A DNA stretch of 45,410 nt from a virus, in the IMG/VR virus record IMGVR_UViG_3300035698_004254, positions 1 to 45,410 of that record; one strand, given 5' to 3'. Shown piece by piece: positions 33,140 to 45,410 of the stretch (within the stretch, counting starts at the first letter, position 1; each line of letters starts with the position of its first letter). The notes beneath the pieces are model-generated. The model saw nothing but the letters and a program-made list of their open reading frames with translations. It did not search any database and had not been told where the DNA came from. Made by a program: the position numbers and the translations under genes.

Positions 33140-33162
33140 CGTTCGGCTCTTCCTATTTAATT

Positions 33163-33233
33163 AGCTAGGCAGGTCGGGGACTCCTGCATCTACTCTTTCG
33201 AGTCGTAATAAAAACCCGCTTATACTACTAGCT
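33163..33233 (-). other. Folded 3' region upstream of the terminator
   Basis: An AGCTAG/CTAGCT closing stem (33163-33168 with 33228-33233) encloses two hairpins: GCAGG/CCTGC (33169-33187) and ACTC/GAGT with a four-base loop that reads GAAA on the minus strand (33192-33203), so a GNRA tetraloop. On the minus strand CGGG near 33215 can also pair with CCCG in the loop of the other hairpin. It lies in the 3' untranslated region of the gene at 33239-33616. It is not a tRNA. It may be a small stable RNA released by the terminator. Confidence 0.4.
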
Positions 33234-33238
33234 GTTTT

Positions 33239-42438: not shown

Positions 42439-42611
42439 TATCCCTTATCCATCCTCTTAACTATCTGAAATGCTCTGGAGGTAGATATATTAAAGCGGTT
42501 ACCCAGTATTGCATAAGTAGCCTCTGGATGCTTGAGATGATATGTAAAGAGCTTTCTATTACGTTCTGTCTTCTCATGAGGCATTGGTGCTAATTTACGA
42601 TACGGTGACAT
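42438..42611 (-). CDS. Helix-turn-helix regulator, first late gene (57 aa)
   Basis: A short basic protein: PHEKTERNRKLFTYHLKHP, then the helix-turn-helix TYAILGNRFNISTSRAFQIVKRMD. The second part resembles sigma factor region 4 (the usual form is EIGxxxGxSxxRVxQI), so it may steer late transcription or help terminase. It has no ribosome binding site and its ATG lies 6 bases after a -10 box, consistent with a leaderless mRNA. Its stop overlaps terS. Confidence 0.72.
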   Translation of the reverse strand: MSPYRKLAPMPHEKTERNRKLFTYHLKHPEATYAILGNRFNISTSRAFQIVKRMDKG

Positions 42612-42617
42612 ACCAAT

Positions 42618-42646
42618 ATAATAAACTATTTACAGCCCCTTGTCAA
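42618..42646 (-). promoter_or_regulatory. Late promoter for the HTH/terminase operon, leaderless
   Basis: On the minus strand TTGACA (42646-42641) and TATTAT (42623-42618) are separated by 17 bases. The expected start point coincides with the ATG at 42611. Immediately upstream of the -35 is the inverted repeat CTAGACGGTTCTAG (42651-42664). Confidence 0.78.
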
Positions 42647-42650
42647 TACC

Positions 42651-42664
42651 CTAGACGGTTCTAG
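42651..42664. promoter_or_regulatory. Operator or activator site candidate
   Basis: CTAGA-CGGT-TCTAG, an inverted repeat with 5-base arms, lies 5 bases upstream of the -35 box of the late promoter. Two copies of AAAAGTGG (42692-42699 and 42716-42723), 24 bases apart, lie farther upstream and may be a second binding site. Confidence 0.45.
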
Positions 42665-42813
42665 TACCCGGGGGAGTAATAAGTGAATTGCAAAAGTGGA
42701 AATGGGGTTGAGGCTAAAAGTGGTAACAATAGTTGTATATAGATTCTTCTTCTTTAATACCTTGCTTAAAGAATAGGTACGGGGAGCCCCACACCACCCC
42801 GCCCACTGAAAGT

Positions 42814-42842
42814 AGTATAATCCTTTCTTTAAGGTTTGTCAA
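42814..42842 (-). promoter_or_regulatory. Strong leftward promoter
   Basis: TTGACA (42842-42837), 17 bases, TATACT (42819-42814). It would start at about 42807 and give the late operon a leader of nearly 200 bases that passes through the second promoter at 42618-42646. Confidence 0.72.
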
Positions 42843-42870
42843 GTAGGTTTCAATGGATTACGGAATAAAT

Positions 42871-42902
42871 AAAAAAACCCCCAAAGTCGTAACTCAGGGG
42901 GG
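42871..42902 (-). terminator. Rho-independent terminator (leftward)
   Basis: Read leftward, CCCCC and GGGGG arms (42878-42882 with 42897-42902) with an inner ACT/AGT pair are followed by seven T. It lies directly downstream of the promoter at 42936-42964, so transcripts from there would be about 60 bases. Confidence 0.82.
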
Positions 42903-42935
42903 ACTGGCGGTAGTAATCACCAGCGATGTACTAAC

Positions 42936-42964
42936 ATGGTAGCACTTAGTGAAAGACTTGTCAA
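42936..42964 (-). promoter_or_regulatory. Leftward promoter of a possible small RNA
   Basis: Perfect TTGACA (42964-42959), 17 bases, TACCAT (42941-42936). The transcript would begin near 42929 and end at the terminator at 42871. It contains CTGG/CCAG as a first hairpin and the terminator hairpin as the second. Confidence 0.52.
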
Positions 42965-42983
42965 GAGGTAGTTTAAAAAGAAG

Positions 42984-43012
42984 GGAGCCCAGGGATTACG
43001 CCGCTGGGCTCC
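42984..43012. terminator. Bidirectional terminator
   Basis: A 9-bp stem (GGAGCCCAG/CTGGGCTCC) with an 11-base loop is followed by TATTTTATT to the right and CTTCTTTTT to the left. It separates the control region promoters from any transcript coming from 43127-43357. Confidence 0.78.
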
Positions 43013-43426: not shown

Positions 43427-43455
43427 TTGACAATTCTTACCTGATAGGTTAACCT
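43427..43455 (+). promoter_or_regulatory. Rightward early promoter with palindromic operator
   Basis: TTGACA (43427-43432) is followed after 17 bases by TAACCT (43450-43455). The -10 box lies within AGGTTAACCT (43446-43455), a perfect 10-base palindrome, so a bound repressor would block it. It is the first promoter before the rightward arm and 33 bases upstream of the first gene. Confidence 0.55.
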
Positions 43456-43487: not shown

Positions 43488-43667
43488 ATGACCAACAAAG
43501 AGATAATCAGGGAAATGGCAAGGGCTTGCAATCAACTCTTCATCAAGAGGGACCTAGCAGCTTACGCCAGGTATGAAGCAGCTCACAAAATCTTCGCGGC
43601 AGCAGGATTACCGTTTCAAGGACCAGAACTAGACGAGGCAATATGCCAGGAAAAAGGCAGGTACTAA
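43488..43667 (+). CDS. First rightward gene, helical protein (59 aa)
   Basis: TTTGGAGGGAGAGAG precedes ATG 43488. Helical (NKEIIREMARACNQLFIKRD; AAYARYEAAHKIFAAAGLPF). The stop is two bases before the hammerhead ribozyme, so ribozyme cutting would leave this coding sequence on the short 5' fragment. Function unknown. Confidence 0.68.
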   Translation: MTNKEIIREMARACNQLFIKRDLAAYARYEAAHKIFAAAGLPFQGPELDEAICQEKGRY

Positions 43668-43668
43668 A

Positions 43669-43726
43669 GCCGAAACACCGCATCAGCGGTGTCCTGCCGG
43701 GATAGCAACCCGGTGGCTGAAGAGGC
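43669..43726 (+). ncRNA. Hammerhead ribozyme, type II
   Basis: All core elements are present in the right order. GCC (43669-43671) pairs with GGC (43724-43726) as stem II. GAAA (43672-43675). Stem III is A43675 plus CACCGC (43676-43681), loop ATCA, GCGGTG (43686-43691) plus T43692. GTC (43691-43693) is the cleavage triplet. Stem I is CTGCCGGG (43694-43701), loop ATAGCAA, CCCGGTGG (43709-43716). CTGAAGA (43717-43723) completes the core. The ends lie at stem II, hence type II. TAGC in loop I (43703-43706) can pair with GCTA just 3' of stem II (43729-43732), a plausible stem I/II tertiary contact. The scissile bond is 43693/43694. Cleavage separates the 59-aa gene from the rest of the early transcript and gives it a 5'-OH end 61 bases before ATG 43755. 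Confidence 0.92.
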
Positions 43727-43754
43727 AAGCTAATAAAAGAAAGGAGTTGATACG

Positions 43755-43967
43755 ATGAAGGTAGTATATGCACTATCGCAAACAGTCGATTTAATCCATA
43801 GCCCAAATGAAGGAGGAAGCTACCTGCGAGAGTCTAAAAACGATGGGAAGGGGACAATAAGAACCAGCACGATATTTAAGACTTCAAGAGATGCTTGGAC
43901 AGCCTTCCGAGACAATACCGTTCAATATGGTAAATGGGGAAAAGATAAGGAGAAACATGCCAAATAG
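43755..43967 (+). CDS. Hypothetical basic protein (70 aa)
   Basis: AAAGGAGTTGATACG precedes the ATG. It is the first gene downstream of the ribozyme cut. Beta start (VVYALSQTVDLIHS), a KTSRDAWTAFRDNTVQYGKW middle, and a Lys-rich end. Overlaps the next gene by 11 bases. No family recognised. Confidence 0.65.
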   Translation: MKVVYALSQTVDLIHSPNEGGSYLRESKNDGKGTIRTSTIFKTSRDAWTAFRDNTVQYGKWGKDKEKHAK

Positions 43968-44088: not shown

Positions 44089-44312
44089 TGCCACATAATA
44101 AAGTTATAATTGTGAAATGCCGTAGGTTAGATTGCTACTGGAATATAGGGCAATATAAAAACAACTGTGCTTCTGGCTGTATCATTGTGAGCGATACTGG
44201 TTGCAGCGCCTACATAGAAAAGCATGAAGCGGAGCGCCGGTTATCCCTGGCAGAGGAAGAGAGAGAGAAAGAGAAGGCGTGCTATCGCAACAAAGGCTCA
44301 GGGGGGAGATGA
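44088..44312 (+). CDS. Cys-rich hypothetical protein (74 aa)
   Basis: ATG 44088 is preferred over 44085 for spacing from GGGGAG. Elements: VKCRRLDCYWNIGQYKNNCASGCIIVSDTGCSAY, with five cysteines in a CxxxxC then CxxxC pattern (written in parts), recalling DUF1540-like small metal-binding domains, then a Glu/Arg-rich helix. Unassigned. Confidence 0.62.
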   Translation: MPHNKVIIVKCRRLDCYWNIGQYKNNCASGCIIVSDTGCSAYIEKHEAERRLSLAEEEREKEKACYRNKGSGGR

Positions 44313-44764: not shown

Positions 44765-45410
44765 GTGACAACAGGTAATTGTAAACACGGTAAATTCGAA
44801 TTAACAGAGGGATGCCCGCAGTGTATCGCGGAGAAACAGGGAGAGGTAGCACTATCACTGGTTAAAGTCAAATACTTCTCTGAAAAAACGGGAGAAGTAA
44901 GCCCGCGTGAATATACATATTATTCAATCGATCCTTTGAACCTGGATGATATTGTAACCGTTCCTGTCCGGGATACCACAGGGAAAGCGAAGGTTACCTC
45001 TATCAATGTCCCTGAATCTGAGATTGAAGCCTTCATGGATAAGGTTAAGATTATCCCCACGGGTTCGAAGCTGGCAGTTCCCACTGCCGAAGGCGTCGCG
45101 AAACTTCTGGGTCAGGAAGACGAAACGACCGAAGCCCAAATTGGATATCTATTCAACCAGACACAGGACGCCGCCCAGGTCGCCAGTCTATTCGACCAGA
45201 AGCCCAAAGACATTACGGAAGTCGTGAAAAAGAGGGATAATGAAGCATTTGAGAATATGGCTTTCAAGATGCTAGGCACACCAAATTCCCTGGCCGCCGC
45301 CGCGAAAGCCGCTGGCGCGGAAGTGACGGAAGTCAATTTATTCGATCAGTCCCCTCCACCCGCCCTGGTAACGATTGAAACTCAGGTCGGAAAGCCCGCC
45401 CCTGAATTGC
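44765..45410 (+). CDS. N-terminal part of the 414-aa protein that spans the junction
   Basis: GTG 44765 follows AAAAGGAGGAATCATAAG. The start has a short Cys/His element (NCKHGKFELTEGCPQCIAEK), then a beta domain (LSLVKVKYFSEKTGEVSPREYTYYS; IVTVPVRDTTGKAKVTSINVP) and a helical part containing two similar units, GYLFNQTQDAAQV and ASLFDQKPKDITEV. At 45284 it enters the terminal overlap and continues in frame at base 1 to the stop at 726. Total 414 aa. The composition becomes clearly richer in G+C from about 45030 onward. No function is assigned. Confidence 0.85.
   Translation, partial: MTTGNCKHGKFELTEGCPQCIAEKQGEVALSLVKVKYFSEKTGEVSPREYTYYSIDPLNLDDIVTVPVRDTTGKAKVTSINVPESEIEAFMDKVKIIPTGSKLAVPTAEGVAKLLGQEDETTEAQIGYLFNQTQDAAQVASLFDQKPKDITEVVKKRDNEAFENMAFKMLGTPNSLAAAAKAAGAEVTEVNLFDQSPPPALVTIETQVGKPAPEL
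45284..45410. repeat. Terminal overlap, right copy
   Basis: Identical to 1-127; see the left copy. Removing one copy gives the 45,283-bp circle. Confidence 0.93.

Follow-up and report, generated by a model that had tools for sequence, protein, structure and literature searches.

A probable type II hammerhead ribozyme between two small genes of a virus genome and its possible role in dividing an operon transcript

The window, that is, the whole stretch of 45,410 nt analysed here (an IMG/VR virus record), is probably a complete genome, since its ends share a 127-bp terminal direct repeat. The portal, protease/head, tail and terminase genes are located on the minus strand, opposite to a rightward block of genes that crosses the junction and whose products include a Rad52-like protein (weak match), a DnaC-like helicase loader and a NinG-like nuclease. 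The first good gene of this block is a 59-aa ORF with a strong ribosome-binding-like sequence, GGAGGGAG, immediately 5' of its ATG, and the next one is a 70-aa ORF (Table 1). The product of the former had no homologues in viral contigs and no family assignment, and no homologues of the latter were found in viral contigs either. A previous reading of the sequence alone had placed a phage type II hammerhead ribozyme after the first early gene and before the second, a placement that stands as far as a sequence can show it, the terms 'early' and 'first' being probable ones drawn from gene order and gene content.

Further features were noticed around these genes. About 30 nt upstream of the first plus-strand gene lies a palindrome, AGGTTAACCT (43446-43455), whose location suits an operator and whose frequency in the window showed no excess over chance. 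The leftward structural genes are preceded by a gene-free stretch (42600-43000, minus strand) that may be the source of a small RNA or act as a leader for antitermination; three sigma-70-like promoters (42842-42814, 42646-42618 and 42964-42936) and two intrinsic-terminator-like hairpins (42795-42776 and 42900-42878) were detected on this same strand. Between two other minus-strand genes (33161-33235, minus strand), skipping-rope RNA (RF02924) was matched weakly over its full length, possibly by a divergent member of the family, at 25.1 bits (cutoff 36.7) and with E-values of 6e-4 for a 241-nt stretch and 0.12 for the whole window.

Table 1. Genes and hammerhead elements at the locus, in coordinates of the window.
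Feature	Position	Strand	Basis
Rightward gene block	from 43488 across junction to about 12.9 kb	+	gene content
59-aa ORF, first good gene of block	43488..43667	+	ORF list; stop TAA 43665-43667
Probable complete type II hammerhead with pseudoknot tail	43669..43732	+	RF02276 match; core and stems parsed
Stem II, 5' strand GCC	43669-43671	+	parser
Core GAA (GAAA)	43672-43674 (43672-43675)	+	reading, parser
Stem III hairpin, 7 bp, ACACCGC / ATCA / GCGGTGT	43675-43681 / loop / 43686-43692	+	parser
Predicted cleavage site, after C17 at 43693	43693/43694	+	established hammerhead mechanism, core alignment
Stem I hairpin, 8 bp, two wobble pairs	43694..43716	+	parser
Stem I strands, CTGCCGGG / loop ATAGCAA / CCCGGTGG	43694-43701 / loop / 43709-43716	+	parser
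Pseudoknot, loop I half TAGC	43703..43706	+	parser; architecture as in published type II pseudoknots
Core CTGAAGA	43717-43723	+	reading, parser
Stem II, 3' strand GGC	43724-43726	+	reading, parser
Pseudoknot, tail half GCTA, 2 nt past stem II	43729..43732	+	parser
AAAGGAG, ribosome-binding-like, serves 70-aa ORF	43740..43746	+	sequence reading
70-aa ORF, downstream gene	43755..43967	+	ORF list

All the hammerhead elements listed in Table 1 were found twice, by direct reading of positions 43660-43760 and by an independent parser. The invariant core is complete, with CTGAAGA for CUGANGA, the GAAA, and TC at 43692-43693 for UH, and it is surrounded by three helices whose order between 43669 and 43726 is that of type II, with stem II open and stems I and III closed by loops. 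One nucleotide separates the TAA from stem II, and 28 nt separate stem II from the ATG of the next gene. The coordinates, stem lengths and cut site proposed in the sequence-only reading were confirmed by both procedures. The contact that it had seen between TAGC in loop I and GCTA in the tail of stem II corresponds to the known type II pseudoknot (here of 4 bp), which is common but not universal in the family, and its tail stretches the element up to 43732.

The search with a hammerhead covariance model, suggested in that same reading, produced a match to Rfam Hammerhead_II (RF02276) at 43668-43734 that covers the full length of the model (positions 1-66) with 36.7 bits, 0.3 below the gathering cutoff of 37. 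When all 4227 Rfam families were compared with the whole window RF02276 was the best family (E=6.1e-4), and the E-values were 4e-6 for a 301-nt stretch and 1.5e-7 for RF02276 alone against the genome. Several hammerheads in multi-copy phage records likewise score 27-36 bits. The bare core pattern, which takes no account of stems or pseudoknot, had one match in the window versus 0.02 expected, and no further hammerheads were detected in the window by Rfam, core pattern or parser. The plain minimum free energy fold was a competing one of -28.3 kcal/mol, 1.2 below the -27.1 kcal/mol of the hammerhead stems when the pseudoknot is left out. Folding energies by themselves thus cannot decide for or against the hammerhead, and because neither the core nor the pseudoknot is taken into account by folding programs, this fold was discounted as counter-evidence. 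The full core, the stems of 7, 8 and 3 bp and the full-length model match thus uphold the assignment to type II, and the stretch 43669-43732 is, judged by its sequence, almost certainly a hammerhead of this type.

Relatives of the window were sought as well. Annotated phages included no DNA relatives of it, and the small-terminase protein and the protein encoded at 44765-45409 had no homologues in viral contigs. Among 80 terminase relatives (56-78% identity over the best segments) there was no credible type II hammerhead, and since the early genes of the window were not found there either, these relatives are uninformative on conservation of the site; no relative covering the ribozyme site was found among annotated phages, viral contigs and terminase relatives. 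A distant terminase relative (41% identity over the best segment) has a type II hammerhead scoring 39.3 bits, located between two small ORFs that share a strand.

The placement of type II hammerheads was analysed in viral contigs, which were searched with a GCC/GGC stem II pattern and then parsed for structure, yielding at least 158 structurally valid elements in the examined loci, at least 149 of them non-identical and including that of the window. For 145 non-identical elements with a usable upstream open frame, nearly all from viral contigs, the position of the first core-side base relative to the stop was recorded; among the matches listed, 119 of the 145 (82%) begin 0-12 nt past the stop of a long ORF (at least 60 codons), vs. 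5% of positions drawn at random from those loci. According to a rough gene model, and among the matches listed, a median of 2 nt separates the element from the upstream stop and a median of 31 nt (typically 24-39 nt) from the next start. The element of the window, starting 1 nt after its TAA, conforms to this pattern, from which about a fifth of the type II hammerheads depart (among the matches listed). In these counts identical sequences were collapsed and related contigs were counted separately, and the post-stop placement could partly reflect the compactness of phage genomes. A pseudoknot of at least 4 bp was present in 46 of 62 long-loop elements, compared to 26% when tails were swapped (among the matches listed).

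A second class of type II elements was noticed in these searches (66 of 146 among the matches listed), in which stem II has at least 4 pairs and the loop of stem I is very short (loci L021, L026, L033, L036, L043, L047 and others). In the examples shown this loop often reads U-NNN-G, and most members of the class lack the pseudoknot.

Clusters of type II hammerheads were also found. In one locus (L036, 890-5156, minus strand, record G028), nine of them separate consecutive small genes within about 4.3 kb; ten Rfam hammerhead matches fall in this record, and seven each in those of L022 and L046. The cluster of G028 is larger than the triple clusters described in 2011 (PMC3088659).

Type III hammerheads were found with a second pattern, and RF00008 detected 17 in the phage records searched and five in bacterial genomes. 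In type III ribozymes stem III is open, hence the upstream product of cleavage has no hairpin at its 3' end. Only 2 of 22 type III elements abut a stop codon, vs. the 119 of 145 of type II (Fisher p=2.5e-11; parser sets, with type II among the matches listed). In 13 type III elements the stop lies 12-80 nt upstream, and for eight of them a hairpin is present within the gap itself (z<=-2.4 vs. dinucleotide shuffles), a small sample in which three of the eight come from a single contig (L281/L296). In this contig (L281, 3950-5480, plus strand), three consecutive type III hammerheads each follow a stop codon and a similar hairpin, GTGTCTT...AAGACAC. No U-tract comes after the eight gap hairpins in the sequence shown, and so by sequence they are not intrinsic terminators. 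In two further loci (L299 and L301) a strand of stem III could pair with upstream sequence as a hairpin after cleavage, and in another two (L298 and L300) the gap has no extra hairpin. Such a difference between types is expected if the upstream mRNA must end in a stop codon plus a hairpin, whereas plain compactness does not predict it. Four of the five type III matches in the phylum of G039 were away from any stop. No type III hammerhead was found in 398 Burkholderia-phylum genomes, in a search that had no positive control, and no type I hammerhead was found in 24 phage records or 299 genomes, where the controls likewise gave no match. A bacterial contig (G751 contig C159, L317/L325) has a type III (684-736) and a type II hammerhead (928-989) on the same strand, 0.2 kb apart.

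What is observed is a ribozyme sequence located just past a stop codon at this locus, and a like placement of most type II hammerheads of phages (among the matches listed). We consider it somewhat more likely than not that a constitutive type II hammerhead divides the rightward operon transcript between genes 1 and 2, making protected mRNA ends. We infer that both genes are co-transcribed, in which case transcription would pass through the ribozyme, and the RNA would fold and cut itself after C43693. The upstream product would be a short mRNA of the 59-aa gene that ends 26 nt past the stop codon, with the 7-bp stem III hairpin followed by one nucleotide carrying a 2',3'-cyclic phosphate, an end that should resist 3' exonucleases. 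The downstream product would have its 5'-OH right at stem I, which may remain knotted to the tail, and would start 46 nt ahead of the ribosome-binding-like sequence of the 70-aa ORF. When the separate products were folded (energies alone), the stem III hairpin was predicted at the end of the upstream RNA and the stem I hairpin at the start of the downstream RNA, with the stop codon mostly free and AAAGGAG mostly unpaired up to GGAG. The effect of the 5'-OH, stabilising or destabilising, would depend on the host. The ribozyme would thereby do by RNA processing the work of a terminator and a promoter, and the two messages could decay independently, the mRNA of the first gene gaining an abundance and lifetime of its own. 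The sequence-only reading had proposed that cleavage removes the first cistron, a claim that is poorly supported because the post-stop placement, common to most phage type II hammerheads, would leave the 59-aa gene with a short message ending in a hairpin; thus we read the element as an operon divider rather than as a device discarding that cistron.

The survey suggests that such phage ribozymes cut the message just past the stop and leave a hairpin-capped end. It is an even question whether this represents a shared design of phage-operon hammerheads, in which mRNAs would end in a stop plus a hairpin, the type II elements sitting on the stop and using their own stem III, and the type III elements being mostly preceded by a dedicated hairpin without U-tract; all of them, that of the window included, would be self-cleaving makers of 3' ends that replace terminators within operons. 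No statement of this rule was found in the open-access literature searched.

The post-stop placement could also be explained by translation. The footprint of a terminating ribosome extends downstream of the stop codon, over the start of the ribozyme. A ribosome terminating at the TAA of the 59-aa ORF might then cover the 5' strand of stem II and the GAAA, delaying folding, in such a way that cutting would report translation of the first gene. The start of the ribozyme 1 nt past the stop, inside that footprint, and the similar placement of most phage type II hammerheads (among the matches listed) fit such gating, but termination is brief and compact packing with a 3' hairpin gives the same placement, and we regard this explanation as unlikely, if the least so of the alternatives.

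Cleavage could instead shut down or destabilise the downstream message, the 5'-OH serving as an entry for RNase J and the expression of later genes being lowered. This would be analogous to glmS, where RNase J1 degrades the self-cleaved mRNA from its 5'-OH end (PMC3997798). However, the hammerhead of the window precedes an operon with replication genes, the new 5' end would be the stem I hairpin, and in phages whose records hold as many as ten hammerheads, these lie between one gene and the next, all of which makes such a role quite unlikely. Switching of the ribozyme, whether by a metabolite or by a factor from phage or host, has been raised as a possibility for phage hammerheads (PMC3088659), but appears improbable for a compact element with no extra domain and no other Rfam match above chance in its flanks. 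Finally, the score just below the Rfam cutoff and the competing fold might point to a chance or non-functional hammerhead-like sequence, which the combination of full core, three stems, pseudoknot and typical post-stop position, with E=1.5e-7 for the genome, makes very improbable.

The preferred reading, that the ribozyme divides the operon transcript, bears on a function of bacterial and phage hammerheads that was left open in 2011 and for which no later answer was found in the literature searched. The window adds a clean type II member in an early-type operon, and the testable rule of type II on the stop and type III with a separate hairpin points to the making of mRNA 3' ends and the division of operons. 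If true, this would explain the recurrence of ribozymes between phage genes and suggest compact genetic parts for separating the genes of an operon.

Perreault et al. (2011) described natural type II hammerheads located between genes in bacteria and prophages, and the majority of them can form a pseudoknot of at least four pairs from loop I to nucleotides downstream of stem II, whose disruption slowed cleavage in one type II hammerhead examined (PMC3088659). The element of the window and its TAGC/GCTA contact belong to this published type, and hammerheads in phage operons were already known, so there is no support for presenting it as a striking novelty. With the RF02276 family it shares a short open stem II, hairpin stems I and III, the conserved core and the pseudoknot between loop I and the tail, and it differs in that this pseudoknot has 4 bp with a 2-nt spacer (a parallel is found in L089) and in its score 0.3 bit under the cutoff. 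As in Bacillus glmS, self-cleavage within an mRNA is predicted to leave a downstream message with a 5'-OH (PMC3997798), but glmS is an unrelated, metabolite-dependent ribozyme located in a 5' leader, whereas the element of the window has no visible ligand element. In the clusters of Agrobacterium, Azorhizobium and Clostridium scindens ribozymes also lie between the genes of a polycistronic transcript, that of the window being single-copy (PMC3088659). Activity was shown in vitro for clustered bacterial hammerheads and in E. coli for the A. tumefaciens set; 4 of the 18 consensus hammerheads assayed in 2011 gave no cleavage (PMC3088659). Hammerheads were found to cluster around prophage genes, and it was proposed that they divide long phage transcripts into mRNAs spanning an operon or a single gene (PMC3088659). 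Small ribozymes occur, as in the window, in the genomes of PaP3 and Bcep176 (intergenic) and of the haloviruses HF1/HF2 (HHphage, before the early helicase operon); these are variants of the hammerhead, whereas the core of the window is canonical and lies after the stop codon of the first gene. In PaP3 neither Rfam nor the parser detected a hammerhead, with only a loose core-like match near 44106 (minus strand). In HF1/HF2 the ribozyme heads early genes, and the mapped 5' end of the early transcript is within 3 nt of the hammerhead cleavage site (PMC3088659).
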